Below, in pieces: positions 32,198-51,547 of a stretch of 64,000 bases of DNA. Under the pieces are notes generated by a model. That model was not told the DNA's origin. It saw only the letters and a program-made list of their open reading frames with translations, and ran no database searches. The position numbers were made by a program, and so were the translations under genes. The stretch is from Crossaster papposus (Eukaryota > Echinodermata > Asteroidea > Velatida > Solasteridae): NCBI GenBank assembly GCA_037893245.1, contig JBAIAA010000117.1:2852001-2916000 (forward strand), in the 5' to 3' direction. How positions within the stretch are numbered: the stretch's first letter is position 1; the number at the start of each line of letters is the position of its first letter.

Positions 32198-32413
32198 AAT
32201 GTCTTAACCCACGCTCCACTTAATTTGTAGTTATTTATATAATGCAATTTTGTCAATTGCCCTGTCTATGTATGTATGTGTTTGTATGTGTGCACTGGTG
32301 TGAGACAAACCACTTTGGATGTATTCTGGTCTATACTCAACTGGTTGTGAAGGATCTTCTAAACATCGGTGAGTTAATATTTATTATTACTTAACATATT
32401 ACTTACAGTTAGT

Positions 32414-35251
32414 ATGAACTCTAATATTGACCCAGACTTAAATTTTCATATTCCTGACAATAACTGTAATTACTATGATCAGGATGAATTTTTGGATAAT
32501 TTTAAAAGTTACATTGGTACGAAGCTGCTGCACTTAAATGCTCGTAGTCTACCTAGAAATATATCAAGCATTATTCAATACCTAAATCTTTTACAAAATA
32601 GTTTTACAGTTATTGGAATATCGGAAACCTGGTTAACTGATATACAAGACCCTTTGATACAAATACCAAACTATGTTATTGAAGGTACTTGTAGACAAAA
32701 CAAAAGAGGTGGTGGTGTTGCACTTTATATAAAACAGGATTTAGTTTATATAAATCGTACTGACCTATGTTTTAATAACCCTGATATTGAATCATGCTTT
32801 ATTGAACTTGTTAATACCGGTAAGGCAAATATTATCATTGGTATTGTTTATAAGCCACCCTGCATATCATGTACTGACTTTATTGAATGTACTGATACAG
32901 TTCTGTCACATATAGACAGCGAGAACAAAAAGTGTTACATTTTGGGCAATTTTAATATAAACTTACTGGAGTATGATACTGATAATAGCGTACAAGCATT
33001 CATGAATACCCTTTTATCTCATTCATTTTTTCCCACCATAGACAAACCAACCAGGATTACTGATGATAGTGCAACACTTATTGATAATATTTTTACCAAT
33101 GTTTATCAAGACCAACCTGCTGGTATTTTGTCCACTGATATTAGTGACCATCTTCCCATATTTTTAATTATTGAAAACCTTACTAAAAAAGTCCGACCGG
33201 ATAGTAAATGTAAAAAGCGTGACTTTAACAATAGTAATGTTGATCATTTTATTCATGACTTGAATGATACTGAGTGGGACTGTATAACTTCTATAAACGA
33301 TATCCACAGTATGTATAACACGTTTTTATTACATATTAAACAACTTTATAATAAAAACTTTCCTCTGCACGAGGTAAAATGTCGCTATGATAAACTCAAA
33401 TCCCCATGGTTAACTGATGGTATTTATAACTCGATAAGGCGTAAGAATTACTTGTACAAAAAGTATTTGAAAAACCCTACTCCGCGAAATAAATCTACTT
33501 ATACTAGCTTTAAAAATAAACTTAACTCTCTGATTAAATTATCCAAAAAGAATTATCTATATAAAAAATTCAATGAAGTAAAAAATAATATAAAAGGTAC
33601 GTGGAATGTAATTAATTCTCTTTTAAATAAGCGTAAACAAAAAAGTAGCTCCTATTTTAACCATGATGGCATTAACATTACGAACGACACCGAAATTGCT
33701 GATTCATTTAACAACTATTTTGTTAATATTGGCAACAGTCTTTCTAGTGGACTACCATTATGTAACACCTCTTTTCATTCATTTTTAAATACCCGATGTT
33801 CGAATTCATTCTTCTTGTCACCTATTACCCAAGAGGAGATTGTGGACAATATTAACAAAATTCCTTCTGGCAAGGCCCCTGGTTTCGACGCTTTGAATTC
33901 TTTTGTAATAAAACAGGCAAGGTATTCGTTAGCAAAGCCTTTAGCTATTATTTTTAATAAATGTCTAACAGCAGGAGTATTTCCCGATAGCTTAAAAATA
34001 GCCCAAGTTATACCAATCTACAAAAAAGGTTGTAGACATGATATTACTAATTATAGACCAATTTCAGTTCTGTCGACATTCTCCAAGTTATTTGAAAGGC
34101 TTATATACATTAGGTTAATATCTTTTATTAACAAGAATGATATTCTTTCGGAGGCACAATTTGGCTTCAGACAAAACCGGTCAACTGAATTATCAACATC
34201 ATATGTTCTCAGTAAAATATGTAATGCGATCGATCATAATAAATTTTCAATTGGCATATTCCTTGACTTATCTAAAGCATTTGACACAGTCAATCATGAA
34301 ATATTAATAAGTAAGATGGAACATTACGGGGTGCGTGGGATTGCCTTGGACCTATTTAAAAGTTATCTGACTAATAGAAAGCAGTATGTGTCTTATAATT
34401 CTGTAAACTCAACTGATCGTGATATTGTCTGTGGAGTACCACAAGGTTCTGTGTTAGGTCCTCTATTTTTTATTCTTTATATAAATGATATTTGTAACAC
34501 CTCCGACATTATTTCATTTTGCTTATTTGCTGATGACACAAGTTTACTATATACTCACCAAAATGTTGACACTGCTGTTAGAAACCTCAATGTTGAACTT
34601 AAAACAATTAGCACTTGGCTCTTAGCAAACAAATTATGTCTTAACTTATTGAAATCTAACTATATGATTTTCTGTGCCCATCAGTATAAATATTCTCAAT
34701 CTGTTCCTCTAATTTTAAATGAATCAAGGCTAAACCAAGTAACAACTACTAAATTCCTAGGAATAACTATTGATGAGCATCTCACCTGGAGAAACCATAT
34801 TGATGACATAGCGACAAAAATATCTAAAAATGTTGGCATAATGAACCGTCTAAAATATTACCTGCCCAGTAGAATCTTGTTAACTCTGTATAATTCTTTT
34901 GTTTTGCCATATTTAAATTATTCAATCTTGACTTGGGGGGGTTCTTCATCTAAATACAACAAACTGTTTACCTTACAGAAACGAGCAGTCCGAATAGTAT
35001 CAAAAGCTGGCTATCGTGATCATTCCCTTCCTTTATTTACAAACCTGAGTCTTTTACAGTTTTATGACCTGTACTATTTTAATTTAGGCAAATTGATGTA
35101 TAAATTTAAAACCAATGTATTACCCCGTTGTTTTAATTCATTCTTCATGTTAACCTCTGACATTCATTTGTATAATACCCGAAGTACTGCCAAGAACAAT
35201 TTTTATGTCCAGTTTAGCCGAACAGAGTTGTGTAAAAATAGTGTTTTTTAG
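32414..35251 (+). CDS. LINE ORF2: endonuclease and reverse transcriptase
   Basis: 945 codons, uninterrupted. The N-terminal APE-type endonuclease is seen in KLLHLNARSLPRN, VIGISETWL, GGGVALYIK, and later TDISDHLPIFLII (the SDH catalytic motif). The reverse transcriptase in the middle carries IPSGKAPGFDALNS, NYRPISVLSTFSKLFE, DILSEAQFGFRQNRST, GIFLDLSKAFDTVNH, CGVPQGSVLGPLFF and the catalytic FADDTSL. The C-terminal part (TWGGSSSKYNKLFTLQKRAV) matches the jockey/CR1 layout. It performs target-primed reverse transcription. The translation ends at 35251, followed by AT-rich 3' sequence with further LINE-like residue KSSNSLSIFVKKLKFYLL in another frame, so the extreme C terminus may be lost by a frameshift. 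Confidence 0.88.
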   Translation: MNSNIDPDLNFHIPDNNCNYYDQDEFLDNFKSYIGTKLLHLNARSLPRNISSIIQYLNLLQNSFTVIGISETWLTDIQDPLIQIPNYVIEGTCRQNKRGGGVALYIKQDLVYINRTDLCFNNPDIESCFIELVNTGKANIIIGIVYKPPCISCTDFIECTDTVLSHIDSENKKCYILGNFNINLLEYDTDNSVQAFMNTLLSHSFFPTIDKPTRITDDSATLIDNIFTNVYQDQPAGILSTDISDHLPIFLIIENLTKKVRPDSKCKKRDFNNSNVDHFIHDLNDTEWDCITSINDIHSMYNTFLLHIKQLYNKNFPLHEVKCRYDKLKSPWLTDGIYNSIRRKNYLYKKYLKNPTPRNKSTYTSFKNKLNSLIKLSKKNYLYKKFNEVKNNIKGTWNVINSLLNKRKQKSSSYFNHDGINITNDTEIADSFNNYFVNIGNSLSSGLPLCNTSFHSFLNTRCSNSFFLSPITQEEIVDNINKIPSGKAPGFDALNSFVIKQARYSLAKPLAIIFNKCLTAGVFPDSLKIAQVIPIYKKGCRHDITNYRPISVLSTFSKLFERLIYIRLISFINKNDILSEAQFGFRQNRSTELSTSYVLSKICNAIDHNKFSIGIFLDLSKAFDTVNHEILISKMEHYGVRGIALDLFKSYLTNRKQYVSYNSVNSTDRDIVCGVPQGSVLGPLFFILYINDICNTSDIISFCLFADDTSLLYTHQNVDTAVRNLNVELKTISTWLLANKLCLNLLKSNYMIFCAHQYKYSQSVPLILNESRLNQVTTTKFLGITIDEHLTWRNHIDDIATKISKNVGIMNRLKYYLPSRILLTLYNSFVLPYLNYSILTWGGSSSKYNKLFTLQKRAVRIVSKAGYRDHSLPLFTNLSLLQFYDLYYFNLGKLMYKFKTNVLPRCFNSFFMLTSDIHLYNTRSTAKNNFYVQFSRTELCKNSVF

Positions 35252-35686
35252 CGTGGCACTTTATATTGGAATAGCTTAGACGAGTCTTTAAAATCATCAA
35301 ACTCCCTCTCTATATTTGTTAAAAAGCTGAAATTCTATCTTCTTGATTCACATCTATATAATTAGTTATAATTTATCAAATTAATTTATGTGGTTTTGTC
35401 TCTCACCAGCCTGTGTTTTCCAGTGTGTGTTTCGTTATATTGTTTGTTTACGTATAATGTCCTTTGTCCTGTGTGTTGACCATATAGATTGTCTGTCAAT
35501 AGGTTAGGGTACAAAAGCAATGCGCTTCACCTTATACCTAAATGTTGTCATTAATTTGGTTATAATTTTATACTTCTGTATATAATTATAATTAGATCAT
35601 TTAATTGTTTACTCTTTGTTAAAGTGAATTCTGTTTTCTTCTATTCTGTGCTAATGGCAGCGTTGAAATAAATGTACTACTACTAA

Positions 35687-36110
35687 ATGGTAGTAAATGC
35701 AATATTCAAGAAGCCTGGGAAATACCAAGGAAGTGGAATTATCGAGGGACTGCAACAGAATAATATAACTGACAGAGGAATCTTGGTGGCGCGAACTTTA
35801 GTCAATGCCGAAGCAAGTTTATTACCAGTTCGTCTGATGAACATTGGAGATCACGCCACAACAGTACAAGAAGGAACAGTGGTTGGATTATTTTCTTCCG
35901 TTGATGAGAACTCCATAACTACATCAATACGTGAGGAAACTAACTTCAATACAATTCGAGCCATGACTGAAATGGAAATGGAGATTCCAGAACATTTACA
36001 AGAGTTGTGGAAGGACAGTGCCGAGAATCTAAATCAAGCAGAACAAGAAGCTCTGGCCCAACTGTTAGTCAAGTATCAAGATGTTTTCTCGAAGGGGGAC
36101 TTCGATATTG
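35687..36110 (+). pseudogene. pol: Element A pol segment between protease and RT
   Basis: The segment GSGIIEGLQQNNITDRGILV, ARTLVNAEASLLPVRLMNIG and then LLVKYQDVFSKGDFDI is the spacer that leads to the RT of Gypsy pol. It runs directly into the LTR of element B at 36111. The next RT sequence of element A appears only at 42682 and starts well inside the RT domain, so about 130-140 residues of RT are missing. Confidence 0.75.
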
Positions 36111-36926
36111 TGTTACGGTCCGGAAAGTGCCAGACTAAAACAATACACAAATAAAGATGGAAACTCCCCAAACGCAACAAGGAGTCAAACAAGACCACAC
36201 TGATGTAAAGAACAATGACTATCATTTATGGATTCATCCCAAAATCAAAACAGATGCACTATGATTAGGTTGGGCTAATAATAATATTATCACAGTGAGA
36301 TCTTAAACTTTACAAATGAAATCTTATACAAAAGATACACAAAAGCTCATTCGAGAATAATATGACGAGGACTTGAACTTGAAGCTTGAGACTGAGAGTC
36401 ATGGAGGAATAAGTGTCTGTCCCGGGTAAATCCAGCGATGGGCACTCCTCAGATATAGAGCTGGAAGTTGCCGAGACAAACACAGTTTCGACATGGAGGT
36501 AAGTTTCTTTCTCTCAAGAAACAACGGCCAACTGCACACGGTGTTCGGGTAGCGTGTAGATTCCCGGCACATGTCATGGTGATTATTCTCCGTCAAACAC
36601 TCCCAGTACTTCCCATGATCCAACGTCGGTGTCACAAGTCCCGTCCAATACGTGAGGCAGACCCTCCTTTGTGCCTGGTGACTGCACCTTGATCACGTCA
36701 GGAGACCTGATCCCAGTTCAACATTTATTGCATCTTCAACATTTGGAGAAACGTGCGATGACGCCGCCATTTTTCTTCTCTCTCCCAGTCGGGGCGCCCC
36801 CTGTCGGCCATGCCAGAATTAAACCGGCCAGTCATGAATATTTAGATTATATTAGCTTCTAGGCAAGTTTCCTTAGAAAATATAGTAACAAATTATAGAT
36901 CAATCTCCCTAATTCTTGTTTGTACA
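36111..36926 (-). repeat. Element B 3' LTR
   Basis: On the minus strand it begins TGTACAAACAAGAATTAGGG and ends CCGGACCGTAACA. It is preceded on the minus strand by a polypurine tract. 816 bp. Confidence 0.9.
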
Positions 36927-37108
36927 TAACATCTCCCCCCTAAAAGAAGTGAAAATTTACAGGGGAAATTTTCGCTTATACTCTTTACGTAATTCACAAT
37001 AAAGGTGAATTAAAACTTTCACAGTAATACACAGTTAAAAGTTATGAAAAACAAAACAAAAGTACATGTACTCTGATCAACTTGGTACTGGCGATGGAGT
37101 GCAAACTT

Positions 37109-37492
37109 CTAAACTCTAGACAGAGCGTCTGCAATAACATTGTTTTTTCCGGCAATGTGCATAATCTTGAGTGGATATGGTTGCAAAATCAAACTCCATC
37201 GAAATAATCTCTGATTCTTGGTCTTGAATTTGTCTAAGAACACAAGTGGATTATGATCAGTGTAAATTATGGTTTCTTCAGCACCATTTGTCACATACAC
37301 TTCAAAGTGTTGGAGAGCAAGTACCAGACCCAACGCTTCCTTTTCGATGGTTGAATATTTGGTCTGGTGTTTGTTCAGTTTCTTAGAGAAGTAACTGATC
37401 GGTCGTTCAATGCCTAACTCATCATCTTGGAGCAAAACGGCTCCAACACCAACATCACTGGCGTCAACGGCTATTTTTGAACGCCTTGTCAA
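37109..37492 (-). pseudogene. pol: Element B RNase H domain
   Basis: KIAVDASDVGVGAVLLQDD, EKEALGLVLALQHFEVYV, IIYTDHNPLVFL and NNVIADALSRV are the conserved RNase H blocks of Gypsy pol, with the D, E, D residues present. It degrades RNA in the RNA-DNA hybrid. It is joined to RT by a one-base length difference in an A run at about 37480, which breaks the frame. Confidence 0.85.
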
Positions 37493-38720
37493 AATTAGGC
37501 GCGGCCAAAACTGGTTCGTTTGTCAGAATGGCTTTCAACTTGTCAAATGCATTTTGGCATGAGTCGGACCAAACAAACTTGACATTTTTCTGCAAGAGTT
37601 TAGTCAGTGGAGTGGCAATAGTGCTGAAGTTTGGAACAAACTTTCTGTAAAATCCACTCATTCCAAGAAATCGCATAAGTTCTCTCTTCCCAGTGGGAAT
37701 GGGAAAGTCCTGAATGGCTTGTGTTTTTGCCATCCGGGGCAGCACGCGACCCTGACCAACCACGTGACCTAAATATGTCACAGTAGCTTTGGCAAATTCA
37801 CTTTTCTTCAAGTTTATCACCAAATTGGCTTCATAAAGACGGTCAAATAGGGCATTCAAGTGTTTCAGGTGGTCTTCCCAGCTATCACTGTACACCAAAA
37901 TGTCATCAATGTAGACAACACAGTTTTCAAGCCCAGAAATGATTGTACTCATCATCCTCTGGAAAGTAGCCGGGGCGTTTTTCATCCCAAACGGCATCAT
38001 TTTGCACTGGTACAGACCATCGGGTGTCACAAACGCTGAAATTTCTTTGGCTTGGTCAGTCAAGGGCACTTGCCAATAACCCTTTAACAGGTCTATTTTA
38101 CTGACAAATGCAGAGTGTCCCACTCGATCAATACAGTCTTCTAATCGAGGTATCGGAAAAGAGTCACTCTTAGTTCCTGCATTGACCTTTCGATAGTCGA
38201 TGCAGAATCTAAGTGTACCGTCAGATTTTGATACCATGACAATGGGAGAGCTCCAAGAACTCTGACTTGGTTCTATAATGTCATTCTCTAACATGAAGTT
38301 AATTTCTTCCCGAACTTTTGACAACTTTGTCGGGTTGAGCCGATAGGGTGCCTGCTTTATAGGTCTTGTATCCCCTACATCGACATCATGAACTGCAACT
38401 GAAGTACGACCTGGTTTATCAGAACAAACCCGCTTGCACCTCTGGAGCAGGTTTGATAGGTCTTGTCGTTGGTCAATGCTCAAATGGCCAATGATGTTGT
38501 CTAAGTCGGCCATAATTTCAGAATTTGAAAGCTGAACAGTTAGAAACTCAAGTTCGGAAGCTTTTGTCTCATTGTCATTTTGTGGTTGTTCACTATTTGG
38601 CTCAATAACAGTTATCCCCACAGGCTGGCCAGAATTATTGCGCTCGTAATATCTCTTGAGCATGGCAAACTCTTTGGCTCTTTCGTCGGTCTGGGGTACT
38701 GATGACGTAATTGACGTCAT
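37464..38720 (-). pseudogene. pol: Element B reverse transcriptase
   Basis: Gypsy-type RT with LENDIIEPSQSSWSSPIVMV, LRFCIDYRKVNAGTKSD, KIDLLKGYWQVPL, MPFGMKNAPATFQR and the catalytic YIDDIL, then the connection domain (RFLGMSGFYRKFVPNFS). All RT blocks are intact. It lies downstream of integrase, the reverse of the normal Gypsy order. A one-base shift separates it from the integrase frame near 38660 (the LKRYYER stretch continues the integrase tail in another frame). Confidence 0.88.
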
Positions 38721-39849
38721 TCAGTTTCTTTTTGACACAGTAAGGCCCACTAAACTTGGCTTTAAGGGGCTCGCCAGGCAGAGGCAACAACACTAGAACT
38801 TTCTCGCCGGGCTTAAAGATGCGGACTTCGGATTTCTTGTCTGCTCTTGTCTTCATGACCCGTTGAGATTCCTTAAGGTGTTCTTGAGCGATAGAACAGG
38901 CTCTTGATAACCTCTCCTTGATGTTCGACACATAGTCGAGTAGATTGGTCTCGTCATCCTCTGCCAGGAACTTCTCCTTGATGAGTTTTAAAGGCCCCCT
39001 CACCTCATGACCGTAGACTAACTCGAACGGAGTAAAACCAGTCGATTCATTCGGGGAGTCCCTCGTGGCAAATAACTGAAAGGGAATTCCTTTGTCCCAA
39101 TCTTCTGGAAAATCCTTGCAGTAAGCTCTCATCATATTTTTGAGGGTTTGGTGGTACCTCTCCAGAGCTCCTTGGGACTGCGGGTGATACGCGGATGACT
39201 TTATCTGCTTTATCCCCATCTCACGCATAACTTTTTGAAACACACCCGACATGAAGTTAGACCCCTGGTCGGACTGCACTTCTTTCGGCAGTCCATATCT
39301 TGTGAAAAACTGCATAAGAGCCTCAACAACAACTTTAGCTGTGATTCTCCTCAATGGAATGGCCTCAGGAAATCTAGTTGACAAATCCATGATGGTCAAC
39401 AAAAACTGATGTCCAGACTTCGTCCGTGGCAGAGGGCCAACACAATCCACGAGGACTCTCGTAAATGGCTCATCAAATGCAGGAATTGGAATCATCGGTG
39501 CAGGCTTAATTGATGGTTGAGGCTTTCCCACCATCTGACATGTATGGCACGTCCTGCAGAATTTGACCACATCTTGGTGTAGCTTCGGCCAATAAAAATG
39601 TGCCATGACTTTAGACCGAGTCTTTCTTATGCCAAGATGACCTGCAACCGGAATGTCATGGGCGATTCTCAGGATATCGTCACGGTAGCAAGGAGGAACA
39701 ACAATTTGATAAACAATGGTCCATTTTTCATCAGCTGGTCTCCGGGTAGGTCTCCATTTCCTCATCAACACGCCTGATTTGAAGTAGTAGCATTCTGGAA
39801 CCTTTTGAGCTTCTTCTTCAGAACACGCTATCTGGGCGAGCTTTCTCAA
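38635..39849 (-). pseudogene. Element B integrase, upstream of RT
   Basis: The HHCC zinc-binding region is seen in HLGIRKTRSKVMAHFYWPKL and CRTCHTCQMVGK. The catalytic core has D, D and E in LVDCVGPLPRT, VQSDQGSNFMSG and HPQSQGALERYHQ; the C-terminal part contains FKPGEKVLVLLP and FSGPYCVKK. It inserts element cDNA into the chromosome. The open frame extends upstream of 39849 (to the end of gag at about 39900) in the +1 frame relative to gag, so expression would need a frameshift or the copy carries one more lesion. Confidence 0.88.
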
Positions 39850-39895
39850 ATCCAGGTCCGCTTTCTGATGTTCTATCAGCGAGGAACGGCTAAAC

Positions 39896-41737
39896 TTAGC
39901 ATCTTGAGACCCTTCCCTTATCTTCTAAATTATTGAAGAAAGTTTCAGCCAACCAAATACCAGAGTCGTCCTCTATGGGCACTGACTCCGCAGCATCCTT
40001 CCGCATCTGCTTCGTTCGAGATCTCGTCACTGCACACTTGGGGAAGACGTCTGGAAACTTTTCTTCCAAAGACTGAACTTCTGGCGCCTCCACAGGTTCA
40101 CCAGAAACAATAGGGGATGCCGACACTTTGCCTCCCGCGACGTCGTTGCCTAGCAAAAATCCAACACTTTTCATCGGTAGACTAGGAACCACTCCAACAA
40201 CCACAGGGCCAGTGAACAAATCACATCTCAACTTCACCCTATGCAACGGGACAGGCATATAATTTCCCCCAATACCTTGAATCAACATTTTCGCATTAAG
40301 CGAACTCTCTGGAGACAATGACATTACGTCCTCCAGCATCAGTGATTGTGACGCGCCTGTATCTCTCAGAATAACAACTGGACTGCAGGCTTCATCCGTC
40401 GTGCTGGACACATCACCATGATAAACAAAATCCTTGTAGATTTCATCAACCTGGTCGATTTTATCAACCACCTTCAAAGAAGAACCACGGTCGCCATCGA
40501 CCTCACCAGACTTCTCGCAAAGAAGAATGTCCTTGCCGACAAAAGCAACGGGCTTCCCAAAACGCTCACGTTCATCAGCCATGAACTTGAAGCACCTCGA
40601 CTTCGAGTGACCTTTCTTGTGACAATATTCACATGGAGGGAAATTAATCTTCTTTCGGTCCTCCTTGGCTTCCCTTGGCGATGAATACTTCCCTGGCGGC
40701 GCAAGATTTCCAGTGCTAGATTGTGCCTCAAACCCTGACTTGCCCTTCTCATTATCACTGTATTTGTAGAATTTCTTTGGCTGGAAATTAGTGTTATTCC
40801 TGCTCATTTTGTGAATTAGGTCATATTCGTCGGCTATTACTGCAGCTTTGTTTAATTTAGAGATCTGGTGCTCTTCTAGATGAATTTTAATACTCTGGGG
40901 AACACCGTTTTTAAACTCTTCCATGAGTACAACCTCTTTCAACTCCACATAATTCTTCTCATTCTTTAGCGATTGATACCAACGATCAAAACCAATTTCC
41001 TTCTGTCTCGCGAATTCAACGTAGGTTTGGGCAAACGATTTAGTCAATTTACGAAATTTTTGCCGATAGGCCTCTGGAACTAGCTCATAAGCATTCAGTA
41101 AGGCTGCTTTCATAGTAGCATAATTACTACACTGGTCCTTTGAAAGTGTGGCATACACTTTCTGAGCTTTACCTACAAATGTGCTCTGCAAGAGCAAAGG
41201 CCAAAATTTCTCGGGCCAACCGATACTTTCTGCAGTTTTCTCGAAAGACAGAAAATATGTATCAACATCATGTTCGTTGAACTTTGGCACCAACCTTACG
41301 TTTTTCGCCAGATCAAAGTTATTTGGAAATTTTCCCTGGTCAGAGTTTTTCTGTGTACCAATCTCGAGTTCTTTCATTTTTAGCTGATGTTCGAGTTCAA
41401 GCTTTCTCATTTCAAATTCTCTATCTTTTTCTTGCCTTTCTCTTTCCTTGTCGTTTTCTTGCCTTTCAAATTCAAGTCTGAGCTTTTCTTTTTCCAGCTC
41501 AATTTTGGCAAGTTCAATATCTCGATCAACACTTTGTGGATATTCTGTCCCGTCTAGATTTAACTTCTCCGCGAGAACATTCACCAGCTTGTGCTTCTTA
41601 GTACTTCGAGAAACTTCTAGATTAAGAAATTTGGCAAGTTCGTGCAACTCATCTTTAGTTAACTGCTGTAACTTAGTGAGTGACAAATCTTCAGATTCTG
41701 CGAAAGCTTGCACTTCGAACTGACTGGTACTAGCCAT
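39896..41737 (-). CDS. gag: Element B gag-protease, 613 aa
   Basis: ATG at 41737. Residues about 20-60 form a SAP-like helix pair (LQQLTKDELHELAKFLNLEV); about 75-135 is a charged coiled coil; the gag core follows (VPKFNEHDVDTYFLSFEKTA); then a CCHC-like knuckle CEYCHKKGHSKSRC. The aspartic protease motif is RDTGAS within VVILRDTGASQSLML. The frame is open to the stop at 39896. Such gag proteins form the virus-like particle; the protease matures it. Confidence 0.87.
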   Translation of the reverse strand: MASTSQFEVQAFAESEDLSLTKLQQLTKDELHELAKFLNLEVSRSTKKHKLVNVLAEKLNLDGTEYPQSVDRDIELAKIELEKEKLRLEFERQENDKERERQEKDREFEMRKLELEHQLKMKELEIGTQKNSDQGKFPNNFDLAKNVRLVPKFNEHDVDTYFLSFEKTAESIGWPEKFWPLLLQSTFVGKAQKVYATLSKDQCSNYATMKAALLNAYELVPEAYRQKFRKLTKSFAQTYVEFARQKEIGFDRWYQSLKNEKNYVELKEVVLMEEFKNGVPQSIKIHLEEHQISKLNKAAVIADEYDLIHKMSRNNTNFQPKKFYKYSDNEKGKSGFEAQSSTGNLAPPGKYSSPREAKEDRKKINFPPCEYCHKKGHSKSRCFKFMADERERFGKPVAFVGKDILLCEKSGEVDGDRGSSLKVVDKIDQVDEIYKDFVYHGDVSSTTDEACSPVVILRDTGASQSLMLEDVMSLSPESSLNAKMLIQGIGGNYMPVPLHRVKLRCDLFTGPVVVGVVPSLPMKSVGFLLGNDVAGGKVSASPIVSGEPVEAPEVQSLEEKFPDVFPKCAVTRSRTKQMRKDAAESVPIEDDSGIWLAETFFNNLEDKGRVSRC

Positions 41738-41868
41738 GATTATGTACGTAAACTACAATAACCAGCAAGCAACAATACACTAAATGTGTGATCCTGTTTG
41801 ACACATCGCTAGCACAAAATTGCAAAGTTGTGCCTATTTTGGTTCGTTTCCCGGACAGGCCCCCAATT

Positions 41869-42681
41869 TGTTACGGTCCGGAAAGTGCCAGACTAAAACA
41901 ATACACAAATAAAGATGGAAACTCCCCAAACACAACAAGGAGTCAAACAAGACCACACTGATGTAAAGAACAATGACTATCATTTATGGATTCATCCCAA
42001 AATCAAAACAGATGCACTATGATTAGGTTGGGCTAATAATAATATTATCACAGTGAGCTCTTAAACTTTACAAATGAAATCTTATACAAAAGATACACAA
42101 CAGCTCATTCGAGAATAATATGACGAGGACTTGAACTTGAAGCTCGAGACTGAGAGTCATGGAGGAATAAGTGTCTGTCCCGGGTAAATCCAGCGATGGG
42201 CACTCCTCAAATATAGAGCTGGAAGTTGCCGAGACGAACACAGTTTCGACATGGAGGTAGGTTTCTTTCTCTCAAGAAACAACGGCCAACTGCACACGGT
42301 GTTCGGGTAGCGTGTAGATTCCCGGCACATGTCATGGTGATTATTCTCCGTCAAACACTCCCAGTACTTCCCATGATCCAACGTCGGTGTCACAAGTCCC
42401 GTCCAATACGTGAGGCAGACCCTCCTTTGTGCCTGATGACTGCACCTTGATCACGTCAGGAGACCTGATCCCAGTTAAACATTTATTGCATCTTCAACAT
42501 TTGGAGAAACGTGCGATGACGCCGCCATTTTTCTTCTCTCTCCCAGTCGGGGCGCCCCCTGTCGGCCATGCCAGGATTAAACCGGCCAGTCATAAATATT
42601 TAGATTATATTAGCTTCTAGGCAGGTTTCCTTAGAAAATATAGTAATAAATTATAGATTAATCTCCCTAATTCTTGTTTGT
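41869..42681 (-). repeat. Element B 5' LTR
   Basis: 813 bp, about 98% identical to the other LTR by eye. It lacks the terminal 3 bases (TGT on the minus strand) present in the 3' LTR, exactly at the junction with element A pol, so the junction has lost sequence. Confidence 0.88.
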
Positions 42682-44913
42682 CTTCAGGATATTGGCAAGT
42701 TGAATTAGACGAGGAAGCAAAGGACAAATCTGCATTTGTTGTGCAAGGCGGTCTTTACTCCTGGGGTGTGATGCCATTTGGCTTATGTAACGCCCCTGCT
42801 ACATTTGAACGCTTGATGGAACGAATCATGGCAGGACTACAGTGGTAAATCCTGTTGTTATACATTGACGACATTCTGTGTTTTGGTAGAACTGTGCATG
42901 AGGCACTAGAACGTCTGGAGACAGTTTTCAAAAGACTGCGAGTGGCGAATCTGAAGCTGAAACCAAGGAAATGCCACCTCCTCAAGCAAAGTGTGCATTA
43001 TTTAGGACATGTTGTTTCAGCGGAGGGAATTACAACAGACCCCGACAAAATTGAAGCTGTAGAGAATTGGAAATGCCCTCAGACAGTGACCGAGATAAGA
43101 AGTTTTCTTGGATTGGCGTCATACTACCGTCGCTTTATCAAGGGATTTTCGGACATAGCACGACCACTTAACAGACTTACAGAAAAGAATAAACCGTTCT
43201 TGTGGACAGAAGAATGTGACCAAGCTTTTGCAGTGTTAAAGGAGAAGTTGGTATCGGCACCTATTCTGTCTTATCCACTACCAGCATGTGATTTCATACT
43301 TGACACAGATGCCAGTGGCTACGCACTTGGAGCGGTACTTTCACAGAGTCAAGATGGGCTGGAGAAAGTAATCGCATATTCCAGTAGAAGTTTAACCAAA
43401 CCAGAGAAGAATTACTGTGTGACGAGAAGAGAATTGCTAGCAGTGGTTTTTGCTCTTAAGCATTTCAAACCATACGTGTATGGCAGGGCAATAACAATAA
43501 GGACAGATCATGGAGCACTTCGCTGGTTGACGAATTTCAAGGATCCGGAGGGACAATTAGCTCGATGGCTGGAGACAATTAGCCAACACAATATCACGAT
43601 AATACATCGACCAGGGAGACAACACGGAAATGCTGATGGACTCTCGAGGAAATGTCAGCAATGTGGCCGAGAAGAACCAGTGGGAAAGCGAACTACTCAT
43701 GATGGAGATGAGGTAGCAGAGTCAGTAACTGGAACACTTCAGCCGAACAGCACAACCGGACTTGAGGCTGAAAAAGATGAGAAAACAAACGTCAGTATCA
43801 AAGGAAACAAGGAAGACAACAGCAATGGAGGAGGAAATTCATTGTCATGTAAGAGTCATTTCTATAGATCCAGAGATCACGAGAAAGGATATTCGTCTGG
43901 CTCAAGTTGCAGACCCAACGTTGGGAAAATTGTTAAATATGGTGGACAATAAAGAAGCACGGCCAGAATGGAAGGAGCTATCGGAAATGTCTTCAGAGTT
44001 CAAGATTTATTGGTCTCAGTGGAACCAACTTGAAGTAAAGGATGGCATTCTTTGCAGGAGATGGGAATCGGACAATGGGAAACAAGTGGACTACAAAGTT
44101 ATTCTCCCTAGGAAATTCAGACGAATGGTGTTACAATAACTCCATGGATCAAGGACAGCTGGACACCTTGGGATTAGAAAAACTAAAGAAAAAGTGCAGG
44201 ATCGGTACTATTGGGTTGGATTGAGTCAGGATGTAAGGTCATTCATTAGGAAATGCTGCTTGTGCACCCGACGGAAATCACATAGACAAAAGAAAGCCCC
44301 ACTGCAACAGTACCCTGTTGGAGCACCCATGGAGAGGATAGCTATGGACATACTTGGACCACTGCCAGAATCAGACAGATGAAATAGATATATTTTGGTA
44401 GTTGGGGATTACTTTACTAAATGGGTAGAGGCATATCCCCTACCGAATCAGACAGCAGAGGTTATTGCTAGCTAGGACATTAGTGGAGCAGTTCATTTGT
44501 CGGTTTGGTGTACCGAGAGAAGTGCACAGCGACCAAGGGCGTAACTTTGAATCTAGAGTAGTAGCTGAAGTTTGTAGTTTATTAGGGATTCAGAAGACTA
44601 GGACTACTCCGTATAATCCAAAATCTGATGGTTTTGTGGAGAGATTCAATAGGACTTTGATGAATATTGTAGCTACCATAGTAGATCCAGTCAGAAATCA
44701 GAAGGATTGGGATGAGCAAGTACCCTATGCCATGTTTGCTTATAGGAGTGCCATACAGAGAGTAAGGAGGAGAGAGAAGAGCGCACAGAGCAAGAAACAC
44801 CTGCAGAGCAGCCCGCAGGTGATGATGAGGCAGAAATTGAAGGAGATGAGACAGAAATTAAAGGAGCTGAGGAAGAGAAGGAGATTACTGCGGCAGACGC
44901 AGCCCTCTCTCAC
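42682..44913 (+). pseudogene. pol: Element A RT, RNase H and integrase, broken
   Basis: It resumes within RT (SGYWQVELDEEAKDKSAFVV, MPFGLCNAPATFERLME, then LLYIDDILCFG after an in-frame stop at about 42846). RNase H follows (DTDASGYALGAVLSQ, TDHGALRWL, GNADGLSRKCQQCG) and integrase (CCLCTRRKSHRQKKAPLQQY, AMDILGPLPESD, HSDQGRNFESR, DGFVERFNRTLMN). Lesions: a frameshift near 43790, another near 44140, a stop at about 44380 and a frame break at about 44467. Integrase stops at AYRSAIQ and jumps to an acidic tail (TEQETPAEQPAGDDEAEIEG) ending at about 44920, so the integrase C terminus is deleted. Normal Gypsy domain order. Confidence 0.85.
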
Positions 44914-44916
44914 CGC

Positions 44917-45265
44917 TGTTAATGCCGCGACAAACGGTTGTGCGCGTGCGTGTATTCTAAGCGCATGGAGCACGCCCTCTGTTGCCCAAATGAGGCCAGG
45001 GGCAGTGCTGCATAAACAATAATTTGCTTGTTGATTCGGCCAATGAAAACGGTTGTTATAAATATACTAATGAATATTTAAATAAATCTTACATATATTT
45101 AAATAGATTATACTCCTTATAACCAGTACACACCAGTTTCAACGGTGTACGCGTTTGTTTCGAGAATAAAACGGCTCCCGGAAGCAGTTCAAGCATGCAC
45201 GTGTTTCACGTCGTGTGGCTCGTCGGTTATGCTGAATTTAGGGATAGTTCTAGGTCCAAAAAACA
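44917..45265 (+). promoter_or_regulatory. LTR-like promoter block
   Basis: Starts TGTTAATGCC and ends CCAAAAAACA, with a CCAAT box (45040), a TATA box TTATAAATA (45056) and an AATAAA signal (45165) in the order seen in LTRs. The stop codon of the acidic pol tail overlaps its TGTTAA start. No target duplication and no second copy was found, and it does not match the LTR of element A, so it may be an unrelated solo LTR or an ordinary promoter. Confidence 0.3.
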
Positions 45266-45843
45266 TCAGTTAGTAAGTTAATCCATGACAAAATGAAGTG
45301 CCAGTATGATGAGAAACCCATGGAGACAGATTAACATGAAAGGTGAGTGGGCAAACCCCCTACGTAGCTTGGAGTTCTTTTTTTAATACACGTCTTCATT
45401 GCTGATGAAAAATTACTCTGCGTCTGTTTTGTACACGTTTCAATACAAACACATGACTTGACCGTCATGCATGCACTTGCTTTGTTCTGCCCGCATGGTG
45501 GTGGGTTTGTTTAGGTCAGGATTTTCCACTGTTTTAAGAACCACATGACCGACCATGATGACATGTTCTATTTTGATGCCAATGCTATTTCAGTAAATAC
45601 ATTATTATGTTTGTGATTATTGAAATTAACGGGATCAATAATTCTAGGCCTAAAAATATTCAACAAGCAATAGGCACCCCAAAAAAAATTAAGGAAAAAT
45701 GCGAGCAAGATATTTCTTGAAATCCCCTTTGTGAGTGGCTGTTGGCTATTTTTATGTTTATAAATTTCACTGATCACACTGATTCTTAACAAAATTAAGT
45801 CACGCTTTAAATTGTACATGTATACATACGTGTACTTTATAAA
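45266..45843. other. Gap without recognised gene
   Basis: Between the LTR-like block and the 3' end of the N-RAG-TP-like gene; TGGGCAAACCCC at about 45347 is mirrored by GGGGTTTGCCCA at about 51112. This is the only hint of paired ends around that gene. No coding exon seen. Confidence 0.4.
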
Positions 45844-48800
45844 TTATGATTCAGATTTCCGTTTGCGGGGCTTTCGCTGAGGACATGCACTTGATATGGA
45901 GGGATTGACAGTGAGCAGATGTTCTTGCATCACGCACATCAGTTTGAAGAGGTCAGGGTCTTGCTTGCTGGTGTTCTGGGCTCCATCAAAGCGCCTGTTC
46001 AGGGTGTTGAACACTGCATGCATGCACTCGCCGCCCTGTTCCCCCAGGAGCCCTAGTCCGTGCCGTGTTCTTCGGACGAATGACAGAACGTGGACTTCAA
46101 GGATGTGCATCTTTGGAGGGAAGCTTTTACCGGGAAAATTGGTTCGGTAAAATTCCATGAAACGAGTGATGTCGTCATCTAGAAGAAAAATTGTGACTTT
46201 TTTTGTTATCAATCAATCGAACACACATGACCAGGTAAGTGTTTTTTATCAAGATTGTTACATTATAATTTGTTTCGTTTGTTGTTAAATTTGAAGTTTT
46301 AATAAACAAACAAATAAGGTGATGATATCACAGTTTCCCAATAATGATTAGAGTACTTCTTTTTGGTTAAACTGCTGAGCATAACCAGCAAATCTTGTTA
46401 CGGTCATGTCTACGTGAAGATAAAATTCATAATCATATTCTACAAGGCAAGCCTAAAATCCTACATCACTCACCAAGTTTTGCAATGTCTGTGTCATTGA
46501 GGGAATCTGCTGTGTTGTAAACATTGTGGCACTTGGCAAAAAGTGTAAAAAGCATTGAGTATTTTTTGCAGATGCTTTTTTCATTTTCCACTTTTTCTGG
46601 GGCAAGGCGTGATGTCTCTTCCACAATGCTGTCTGTGACTTTGTGGATATTTATCTCCTGCATACATGCAAGTGAAACAAAATGTAACGAAAATGTGAAA
46701 CTATAAAGTTAACTTTCTGCATAATCATGTAATGTTAGTTACAACTCTATTGTTGCTTATTTGTTAAATTCCTGTAATGTTAAAGATTTTTATAAAGTAC
46801 ATACATTACTCACTTTCAAACACTTAGGTACATGATTCCCTATAAAGGTATTGCTGTAATAAGCTTGTCGTCGCACTTTTATGTCCTGGAGGCACTTGTC
46901 AAGGTTTTGCAGCAGTGGGTTGTGATGGTCGGGGAGCTTCTTCACTACAGTGCTTCGAATTGCCTCCTGTTAAAGGTAAATTTCAGGAGGATGTTGATTT
47001 CATTTCTTTTCATATAAATAATTTTGAAAGATATGCAACATTTTTTACCTGGTGTATTTTTCAATTGAAAGATAATTTCACTAACCTGCTTTTCAAGTTG
47101 TTTTCCCAGTGCATTTATTTCTAAATGGACACTGGAAACCACATCATCAACGTTGATGTTGTCATTGAGAAGTGCCACAAGTGCCAGTTGTTCCTGCAGT
47201 TCTCTCATTTCACTTGTTATTTCTTTGACACGCTCTTCAGCCAAATGCACCTCGGCAAGTTTCGCAACATAAACAGGGAAGGGACCATTTACAATACCAC
47301 TGGCACCCTGTGGAGAAATCGCAAGAGATGCTGCAATTTCCTCACCAAGATGTTTGCACTCCTCTTCCATCAAGGTGTAAAACTTGAACCACAATCCAAG
47401 ACTGATGTGGAGGGGAAGAGGACAAACCTAATAACAAGAAACCACAGAATGGTAATATATTAATTTATTGTGAATACATTAACAAGTGTTAATTATTATT
47501 AATGTTATATTTGCTTATAAATGATTGCAAAAATTAGAGATGACTTACGCAATCAATTGGTATTTCGAAGAATGCCCCGTTAATTACATTATTGAAGGTT
47601 TTGGCTTTGGTCAGCACTCCCCCAGCTGCAAGAAACCGTTGGTGGTCATGGTTGAGTGTCTCAGTTGTCCTGGTGTCACAAGGAGGACGCTGCGCCTTTG
47701 GCAATATCATGTCTTTTTTGTAGATGGTGCACCAAAGACATGAATGGCGACCTGCCAAAATATTATTCAGAACTTGTTTAAAATAACCGTTACATTTAAA
47801 CCTGATCTTGAGATGAAATGTGAGCCACTAAAACAAAGCACACGTATATTTAGTTTCCAGGATGAAACTAAGCTTAGATGAAACATACTACTTGGTCCAG
47901 AGAGGCCATACATCCTGCAGAGGAATTCGTAATCTCCAAACATAAAGAGGACAATCTTTTTTTCCTAAAGAGTAATCATAAAAGAAGGATTAATTCATTC
48001 ACAATGATATTGGCCCTATTTTCAAGTTATAAGAATACAAAGTTAAAAACATAAACACTAATAATAAAAAAAATAGAAAATCAAGAAGCATGTTTTGAAA
48101 TATGTTTTCTTGTACTACCTCCATGTAGTTGTAGACAGAGTTTCCACCTGTGTCTTGTAGCGGTTAATTCCGATGTGCAAATTTGCAGCAGAGTCATTTG
48201 CTGCAAATACACAAATTACGCTGGTGTTGCGTCTGGAGTTTGGATTGTCGACATTTGCCACTTGGAGCATCAACTTAAAAGAGCCACCACCCTTGTCACC
48301 ACCAAGCTTAATCCAAATTTGACCCTGCGGTTGTCCGTTTCTCCATTTCAGTTTGTCACACCTTGATGATATGCATAACGGGTACATATAATGTTTAACA
48401 GTTGTACTATACAGGAAACGAGTGTATGAACAAATTAGTTTCATTTATCATTATTTACCTTTCATATTCATCCAGGAGGTCAAGAGTGTACTTTGTCAGG
48501 TCAGTGATGAAGACGCATGGAGCTGGTTTGGTGACGAGGGCGTCCTTCTCATTAAATAGAAATGGCATAATTTCTCCTTCAACTGTCTCCTTTCGAACAC
48601 ATGCTTTGCCAAGGGCCCTGCTGGCTTGCTCATTTGCCATGACGACATTATATTTGCGTAACCACCTAAACAAGAATGTACATTTTTTTAAATGTGTTAT
48701 ACATTATCTTTATTGAGCACGTTATTAGACAGTCCTGTAATTGGCGACTTGATCGATGTTGGATTTGGTTAATAAATAAATACAACTATTTACATCGTCA

Positions 48801-51206
48801 CATAAAACTTTGTCTTACAATTTCAGCTCCCGAAGTGCAGCCCATGGACATGCCCAAGTCGGACTTTAGGGCAAGTTCTTCCAGTGGTGGGACAGTTGAC
48901 TTAAGCTGCATGTTGCGCAACAGGCTTTGCAGCTCCCCTCTTGGCGTACTCTTCAGATGATGCTGCAACTGACACTTTGGCTGCCCACCACTTACATGCG
49001 AGAGCTGCCTCTTGACTAGAGTGCTTCGGCGTTGCAAGGTCCGTTGACTTACTTCACAACTTGTTTTTTTGGGATGGGTAATTTGGTGGATGCGGAGAGC
49101 CTAATAATTAAATTTATGATACATGTTACTTGCTAGTAGATTTAAAGCTTTGCATATAGTACAGAATACGGAGTTTGTGGGTGACAACCCACAAAATAAT
49201 GTAAAAATTATAATGTAAAAATAATGTCTTCCAGGAAGGAATGGAAATTCTTAGAAAAAAACCCAGGGCATGATTGTCATTTTCAAACTAGTTTTTATCG
49301 AAAAACAATTTTGATGTCATTTTCTTAACTTAAATTTTGTTTTCCATAACAACAGCTTTACTCCCCGTTTAACTTTATTTTTCATGTACATCTACATTTA
49401 ATATTTTTTATTTTTTTCATTTCTAAACCTTACCTCACCGCCAGTAGAAAGCCGTACTTGTGTCGTTCTACTATTTTTCATCTCTGCTTTGATCAACTTG
49501 GATGTCATTTGCTGCCCAACTTTGCCAAGGGGAGAGACATTTCTTGACAAAATGTTTCGGAATATTTCCTCATCAATCTGTTGTGAGGATTGTGGGTTAG
49601 TGCAATCATGTGTAGATGTGCTTTTCAACAGGCTGCTTCTTTTGCAAGTTTTACACACTACCTTTGCATCCTGTAGAATATTTATGAAGTATTCCTTCAC
49701 TGGGGAGATTTTTTTCAGACTGATGTGTATGTGGCAAGTAGGACAGAGCACGGTAGAAGCAGAAGCTTTACTGAAAAGGGTGTGTAAACACTCTAAACAA
49801 AAGCTGTGCTGGCAGGGAGTCTCAACAGTTCATTATTTTATTGCAAATTTCACAGCGGTAGTGGCGCTCATCACAAAAGAAGCCATCACGAACAAATTCA
49901 GTAGTTGTGCCCATCATTTGTTTGAACCGCTCCTCCACCTCCAATCGTGTAGTTTCTTCATTTTGTGCAAGACGATGCATCCTGTCATATTTCTGTTTGA
50001 CTCCTGGGCTACCACCTTTGTTGTTTTTAACCCCTTGGCATACCACACATGTGCCTTCCTCTGGGTGGGGAGGCCAGTCATTGGGAAGGGTATGGGTTTT
50101 GGCCAAGTATAGATTTGAATAGCAGAGATGGCAAATATGTTGGGGATGGCGGTGTTCTTCATCAGCTGAAATATCGATGTGGTATTTTTCTTTAATTTTG
50201 TCCTTGTAGACGGCACATCTTTTCACTGGCTTGGCTTTATGTTTGTGTTTTTGGACATTGCTCCCGCACACCCTACATAACCTTTTAAGATTATGTATGT
50301 GCTCGTCGCTCATTTTGACCTTGGCTCGATCTACATGTTGAAAAAAGGTGGAAGTGAATGTTCATCGATTCTAAATTTGTATTCGTGTATGATCTTGATG
50401 GTGGGTCTTTGTAAGTTATGACAATAAAACAGGATCGATGTAATTTGGTTGAAATAAAATAATAATAACAATATCTATATATATTTCATTCCTGTTTACA
50501 TATGAAATGTTCTCCACATTATTATAAATGGGCATGTAAGCAAAAATAAGAAGGGCCTATGTTGAACTATGCCATGTTTATATTTCAAAATGCCTGTGGT
50601 ATTTTGTGTAGGCCCCTCCTATAGTTTATTTCTTCAAAACCAAATTAGATTTATTTTGGAATTGTTTTTAGAAAATCAAGAAATCAGAATTGAATAAATC
50701 ACAAAATCATAAGTGAAGTGTTGTTTTAAATTTACGAAATAAAGAGATAACTGCTTTTAAAATTATAACATTTCTGTATAAAATTGTAACATTTCTGTAC
50801 AAAGACTAAATAGTTCTGAAGAATGAATAAATCAGGTAAACGTAAGTGAAGTAATGTGTTGTATTAAATTTAGTTTTGTTGTCCAATAAAGAATAGATAC
50901 GATCATAAACAACGTCAAAACGATCCGTTAAAAAACCCTGTCATGCGATGTACTAGCGTGTTACCGCACACACGGGCCTGGCCGCCGCGCCGGTGCCCGC
51001 ATCAAACGTACACTCGTAAACGCGCACAAAGTATAGGTAATTCCCCCAATTTGTTGCCGACGAGGGACTTTGAGACGGGGAATCCCTAATGTTTTCCACA
51101 ATTCAAAGGGGTTTGCCCATCCTAAAAATTAATAGATGGTAGATGAAAGCTCATTCATTAATATGGTATACTGTCTAATGTATCGGGGGAACTTACCTTG
51201 ATCCAT
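45844..51206 (-). CDS. N-RAG-TP-like transposase gene, 11 exons, frameshifted
   Basis: Exons on the minus strand: 51206-51197 (10 coding nt, ATG GAT CAA G), 50330-49434, 49100-48819, 48665-48459, 48361-48119, 47964-47892, 47751-47549, 47427-47086, 46966-46814, 46657-46474 and 46178-45844; GT-AG throughout, about 970 residues. The N-terminal part resembles RAG1's N-terminal region: LKRLCRVCG, then HPQHICHLCYSNLYLAK and CVVCQG, and a RING-type finger (RCEICNKI...CQHSFCLECL...LCPTCH). The remainder is transposase-like: QIWIKLGGDKGGGSFKL, DNPNSRRNTSV, FGDYEFLCRMYGLSG, RHSCLWC, FPPKMHILEVH and GLLGEQGGECMHAVFN; D in GGDKGG, D in FGDYE and E in GEQGGE are candidate catalytic acids. This layout matches my memory of the N-RAG-TP transposon described from Aplysia. 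Lesions: a one-base shift at about 49813 between the RING cysteines, and phases that disagree at the exon 3/4 junction. Ubiquitin-ligase activity of the RING is possible but unproven. Confidence 0.72.
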
Positions 51207-51323
51207 AAATTAAGCACAAAAATCGCCGCATTTTCCGGATTACGCGCAACGTCAAGGCAAATTTGGTCAATGTTTTCACCAAATTTTCCGCGACTGGCTG
51301 CGCTTGAGAACAAAAGTTATGAG

Positions 51324-51360
51324 CTATTTATAATATTAAGGTATTCCTAGCTGTTATTGG
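51324..51360 (-). promoter_or_regulatory. CCAAT and TATA boxes of the N-RAG-TP-like gene
   Basis: On the minus strand CCAAT (51360-51356) is followed by TTATAAATAG (51333-51324), about 120 bp upstream of the start codon at 51206. Spacing suits a TSS near 51295. On the other side a GGCGCATGCGTA site (NRF1-like, about 51488) precedes the plus-strand ORF at 51548. Confidence 0.5.
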
Positions 51361-51547
51361 TCAGTAAATTTTTGCCTAGGTCATGAATATTCATTGAATT
51401 TCAGGTTTTTCTTGAACGTCCCACAGCATCTAAACTACTAGGGTCATACCTCATGCATATTCATTTTAGGTTGACCTCGCGACCAATCCGGCGCATGCGT
51501 ACAACCGTGTGTCGCGTCAAGGCTATTTTCAACAGCGGTGCTCTCTA

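Follow-up and report, generated by a model that had tools for sequence, protein, structure and literature searches.

RAG1 is the basis of vertebrate adaptive immunity, and the origin of its N-terminal zinc/RING region is disputed: RAG1 may have gained it late, by fusing with an N-RAG-TP element, or it may be an ancestral region lost from most Transibs. The 64,000-nucleotide stretch of DNA analysed here (the window, in which all positions are given) raises this question through a minus-strand gene at 45844–51206, which a sequence-only reading had described as a RAG1 N-terminus joined to a distinct transposase. The locus is instead very probably a degenerate Chapaev cut-and-paste DNA transposon, with a single gene in RAG1 domain order, in the genome of an echinoderm that is probably an asteroid. 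The order of its domains, held with equally high confidence, is a Chapa/RAG1 zinc domain, a RING and zinc finger, a possible segment like the nonamer-binding domain (NBD) of RAG1, and a RAG1-type core. With a RAG1-like N-terminus, a RAG1-core fold predicted in homologues and asymmetric ends resembling RAG signals, this family is test material for the origin of the RAG1 N-terminus.

Limits and classification of the element

The whole element is 6630 bp long (44911–51540, minus strand), as delimited by copy break points, terminal inverted repeats (TIRs) and a target-site duplication (TSD). Both limits are points at or near which other genomic copies break off, and it was these break points that revealed the TIRs; an inverted-repeat scan (25 longest of 48 pairs) did not. 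The TSD, CTCT (44907–44910 on the left and 51541–51544 on the right), could be 4 or 6 bp long in the window because it sits in a CT run. Internally deleted copies elsewhere (L015–L017) have clear 4-bp TSDs, namely TGCT, ACCC and TTAC.

Both ends of the element begin with CACCGCTGTT (box 1), and are thus TIRs that start with CAC. A second box, CGCGACAMACGGTTGTRCGCRTGCG, is present at both ends at unequal distances. In the left repeat, on the 3' side of the gene (44911–44950, plus strand), box 1 is separated from CGCGACAAACGGTTGTGCGCGTGCG by a 5-bp spacer; in the right repeat, on the 5' side (51492–51540, minus strand), it is separated from CGCGACACACGGTTGTACGCATGCG by a 14-bp spacer. The right and left second boxes are identical at 22 of 25 positions at a 9-bp shift, a match equalled by none of 5000 shuffles and by 5 of 5000 random window pairs. 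This layout is constant, with few substitutions in the left ends, in 5 + 5 aligned, non-independent ends from six loci of a single family.

According to the available part of PMC3985635, the Chapaev transposase is DUF1280, which falls in one clade with RAG1. The available text of PMC4411706 (Kapitonov & Koonin 2015) places Chapaev in the Transib superfamily, names its N-terminal zinc domain Chapa, and describes a RING after Chapa in two Chapaev subgroups. The window element has a DUF1280 transposase, TIRs starting with CAC, a 4-bp TSD, a Chapa zinc domain like that of RAG1, and a RING. As Chapaevs with Chapa and RING have already been described (PMC4411706), it would therefore belong to a known kind. 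It also carries the signature of the CMCT clade (PMC12730594) – D, D and E, with C(2)C and H(3-4)H between the second D and E – in which the first D was placed by eye.

In two respects the element departs from these Chapaev subgroups: its N-terminus scores nearer to vertebrate RAG1 than any other Chapaev N-terminus in the comparison, apart from Asterias P0001, and its two ends differ in spacer length. No report of asymmetric Chapaev ends was found among the papers listed by the literature searches, which did not cover most subscription papers or Repbase Reports. Two other Chapaev-type families in the same genome, F7 and F3, have CAC ends and 4-bp duplications (two copies each). The second box of F7 is weak (84 of 5000 shuffles as good) and none was seen in F3 (483 of 5000 as good); asymmetric ends are not claimed as general to Chapaev. 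The ends of a further family, F1, were not found within the 7 kb examined.

The element has several features in common with RAG1 and the RAG-like (RAGL) transposons TransibSU, ProtoRAG and AanRAGL: domain order, core fold, CAC ends, the positions of the second D, the E and the zinc ligands, and asymmetric two-box ends. The end spacers are 4 and 13 bp in AanRAGL, with asymmetric two-box ends also in Transibs (available part of PMC9435367), and 27 and 31 bp in ProtoRAG (available part of PMC8289069). It differs from them in having a core so diverged that the sequence searches used did not recognise it, and in a family TSD of 4 bp rather than 5 bp. Three marks of RAGL elements were not seen here: the 5-bp TSD, a RAG2-like kelch gene, and a core recognisable by PF12940. 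For a RAG2-like gene, no stop-to-stop frame of at least 100 amino acids lies wholly within 44911–51540 outside the transposase span, frames overlapping the gene not being scanned for kelch. With E values up to 1 allowed, no piece of the window matched PF12940; this profile had no match in the genome and none in any control genome either, so that absence from the genome is not established.

The N-terminus compared with RAG1

The gene model has 11 exons with GT/AG borders; it opens with an ATG (51206) and closes with a stop (45844). Exon 1 (ATG; 51197–51206) ends in the donor AAGGTAAGT. Exon 2 (49434–50330), placed by Pfam PF12560, PDB RAG1 and the alignment to P0001, a homologue from Asterias rubens, contains the zinc motifs LCRVCG (50280-50263), HPQHICHLCY (50148-50119) and CVVCQG (50049-50032), followed by a RING and the next zinc finger. 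This is the order of the RAG1 N-terminal region, though the RING is interrupted in the window. These motifs, and those of the body given below, are on the minus strand as the sequence-only reading had listed them.

Homology of the first ~250 residues to the RAG1 N-terminal region is supported by several sequence comparisons. The first translated piece matches PF12560 (RAG1_imp_bd; 6.5e-9, 36.2 bits, cut-off 23.3), and in a PDB sequence search mouse RAG1 is the top match to the N-terminus (E 9e-6), collinear over residues 95-380. P0001 matches RAG1 over 141-372 (E 9.7e-10), and a search with family profiles reached 21wb, a structure of the RAG1 N-terminal domain, at 2.6e-10. Pfam RAG1_imp_bd was recognised in six of 56 scanned homologues. 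The RAG1-like zinc motifs and RING claimed at first sight are thereby borne out.

Ninety-seven Chapaev-type proteins and the window (98 in total) were ranked with a profile built from 16 vertebrate RAG1 N-termini; in 33 of the 97 the first zinc motif is within the first 120 residues, and most of the others look truncated at the N-terminus. P0001 ranked first (2.8e-16, 52.5 bits) and the window second (5.2e-16, 51.6), followed by P0041 (1.5e-14, 46.7), which is not closely related in the tree. Fourteen of the 98 were above the inclusion threshold. The RING-bearing protein P0005 of Asterias amurensis was removed by filters (8.9e-9 with filters off), and the crinoid P0002 reached only 5.7e-4.

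The resemblance could in principle be one of cysteine-rich domains in general, of ZAD or RING type. The second translated piece matches Pfam RING families at 2e-4 or weaker, under their cut-offs; the match to mouse RAG1 has a large bias term; and the zinc region (50280–50119) weakly matches the insect ZAD (zf-AD 1.8e-5, under cut-off), as does the family profile the Drosophila ZAD structure 7po9 (E 0.002). This explanation is nonetheless hardly credible: RAG1 is the top PDB match of the window, the zinc motifs, the RING and the finger after it are matched in one collinear stretch, none of 980 shuffled sequences was reported by the RAG1 profile, and for P0001 the RAG1 RING fragment 1rmd (1e-8) is ahead of every RING protein other than RAG1. 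The ZAD match is also of interest in its own right, as hinting at a connection between ZAD and transposon N-termini.

The transposase body and the RAG1 core

Exons 4 (48459–48665, where DUF1280 starts) and 5 (48119–48361) match DUF1280 (PF06918; 2.2e-16, 60.6 bits, cut-off 25); exons 6–11 match no Pfam family under E 0.2. DUF1280 was found in all 56 homologues scanned, partly because they were collected by means of it. A protein from Asterias rubens is 57% identical across 59% of the query (E 1.5e-210), which like the PF12560 and PF06918 matches lies far beyond chance. The named nearest proteins, from Asterias, Antedon and Amphiura, are all from echinoderms.

The first predicted catalytic Asp (48297-48295) is in exon 5, in KLGGDKGGG (48309-48283), with GGGSFKL next in the same exon (together the GGDKGGGSFKL noticed earlier). 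The second (47934-47932) is in exon 6 (47892–47964), in FGDYEFL (47940-47920). Exon 7 (47549–47751) encodes CxxC zinc ligands (47740-47729), exon 8 (47086–47427) a region of long-helix insertion according to the model of a homologue, and exon 9 (46814–46966) a GNH motif; exon 10 is at 46474–46657. Exon 11 (45844–46178) encodes HxxxxH zinc ligands (46107-46105 and 46092-46090) and the predicted catalytic Glu (46029-46027) within GEQGGECMH (46044-46018), and then the stop.

Sequence profiles and predicted structures support the body as a DDE-type transposase homologous to the RAG1 core. Profile-profile comparison with 16 vertebrate RAG1s aligned the whole core, RAG1 466-1010 (E 1.2e-9 and 6e-9). 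In the second of these alignments D529, C548, C551, H860, H865 and E886 of the homologue P0004 pair directly with RAG1 residues, which are taken to be mouse D708, C727, C730, H937, H942 and E962, catalytic roles included (mouse numbering being the printed Peromyscus numbers minus 5). The first D is unpaired in the printed alignment, where D459 of P0004 falls on the lysine of KHGSG; it was assigned to D600 by eye, from the matching strand. All seven catalytic and zinc residues are kept in the window. The predicted folds of P0004 and P0005 match the RAG1 core, and so are of RNase H type, the fold for which the sequence-only reading had suggested testing the C-terminal body; the Foldseek score of the HzTransib transposase is lower than that of RAG1. 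Of the D, D, E triad that such a fold would bring together, the second D and the E are placed by direct alignment to RAG1, the first D by eye.

These results divide the original description, in which a RAG1 N-terminus was coupled to a body that was not the RAG1 core. The N-terminal half of that claim stands, with a RAG1 profile match; the distinctness of the body does not, as its profile links it to RAG1 and its homologues are predicted to have the RAG1 fold. Neither of the two results that the reading had named as refuting it was obtained: the N-terminal stretch does match RAG1, and homologues of the body do show an RNase H fold. An N-RAG-TP-like chimera, in which the RAG1 N-terminal region was fused late to an unrelated transposase, was accordingly rejected and is given very little probability. 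In its favour, the likeness of the N-terminus is far more readily detected than the body's, and the N-RAG-TP of Aplysia, a transposon protein, is described as resembling the RAG1 N-terminus in the available parts of PMC8355894, PMC2996935 and PMC13337447, a comparison with the window by description only. In a tree of 57 bodies, the six RING-bearing rows (strict pattern) are found in two places, one of them holding the window with the Asterias, Antedon and Amphiura proteins; five changes are needed to account for the RING label, whose clustering is not significant (93 of 500 shuffles gave as few), so repeated gain is possible. RING rows in two places also fit an old shared layout with losses, and a body homologous to the RAG1 core, in RAG1 order, is at odds with fusion to an unrelated transposase.

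Several points weigh against reading the locus as a Chapaev element of RAG1 plan. The assignment takes a 4-bp TSD to be a Chapaev hallmark. The RING of the window alone is not specific to RAG1 (RNF4 4.2e-5, TRIM21 9.6e-5, RAG1 fragment 1rmd 0.0024), and both these scores and those against the RAG1 N-terminus profile have large composition bias terms. Pfam and PDB sequence searches left the body unlinked to RAG1, with no significant PDB profile match, and the structure models are those of homologues rather than of the window's own protein. Profile alignments are weak across the NBD region of RAG1, and exon 3 (48819–49100) is a weak, unproven candidate for its equivalent.

By analogy with RAG1 and Transib at every binding and catalytic step, a dimer core would contact box 1 with its CAC start and the NBD-like segment would contact box 2, the short-spacer end pairing with the long-spacer end. 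The DDE triad would cut beside CAC, and insertion with a 4-bp stagger would leave 4-bp target duplications. The RING/zinc module would dimerise or regulate the enzyme, possibly as a ubiquitin ligase. A wider proposal, rather improbable on the present data, is that the full RAG1 plan and asymmetric two-box ends with unequal spacers go back to an ancestor shared by Chapaev, Transib and RAG elements. If true, asymmetry of the 12/23 type would predate RAG2 and the split of the three groups, and the RAG1 N-terminus would not have been acquired by fusion.

Frame damage, other copies and surroundings

The window copy is inactivated and degenerate. The eleven exons of the sequence-only reading were recovered, with splice phases consistent at nine of the ten junctions; the exon 5/6 junction clashes, and the P0001 alignment requires a phase there that the window has not kept. 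There are two frame breaks, one in exon 2 inside the RING (about 49825–49830) and one in exon 3, shortly before it ends (about 48850), and the P0001 alignment splits into pieces at both. At the RING, exon 3 and exon 5/6 defects the DNA of the other allele, L009, is identical to that of the window. Sequencing errors are therefore unlikely, and "recently functional" claims too much for this copy. In L009 there is also a stop in the DUF1280 stretch, and the left end of the element is missing (window 44881–45144 absent). A 93% copy, L010, reads without interruption across both the RING and the last part of exon 3, but its frame is broken elsewhere, after the RING, and it has no left end.

A gene with many exons, most splice sites kept and a close relative in Asterias might be a host gene domesticated from a RAG-like transposon, the origin suggested for the RAGL genes of sea urchins (available part of PMC9885083). 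Against this the locus is flanked by TIRs and a target duplication, its frame is disrupted in both alleles, and further copies exist elsewhere in the genome; domestication has next to no probability compared with a degenerate transposon.

The genome searched for copies (1.02 Gb, 1841 contigs) has at least 62 other pieces that match the element. A piece of ~125 bp from exon 2 is present in at least 28 copies (88%), on contigs C156, C186, C153, C18 and others; six of ten neighbouring pairs on the same contig are 259–270 kb apart, which would fit the repetition of a very large unit. The four fetched copies (L018–L021) are internally deleted elements, embedded in a larger repeat that also contains a ~41-bp minisatellite.

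In this genome DUF1280 is matched 104 times, whereas 14 control genomes gave no match. Among viral contigs the family profile produced 71 pattern matches but no relative. Family F3 (L030–L036, L041) is RING-bearing by eye, and its copies are 98.5–100% identical, some perhaps being alleles. Two copies at different sites (C543 and C151; ends in L050–L053) have the ends CACGGCAGTT and TSDs GATG and CCTT, and F3 was apparently active more recently than the family of the window. Near one end of the window family, F3 and F7 there is by eye a CCAAYAGAGGGCG-like motif, which presumably resembles the CTCF core. A separate DUF1280 branch (L042–L047) has single open frames of 983 and 988 amino acids, and a different N-terminus with CxxC motifs and what looks like a predicted coiled coil.

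Other mobile elements lie within 32378–44800 of the window. They include an endonuclease–reverse transcriptase frame (32378–35248) and frames for reverse transcriptase and RNase H (37467–38720 and 42849–43949), and a retrotransposon remnant adjoins the Chapaev element on the left.

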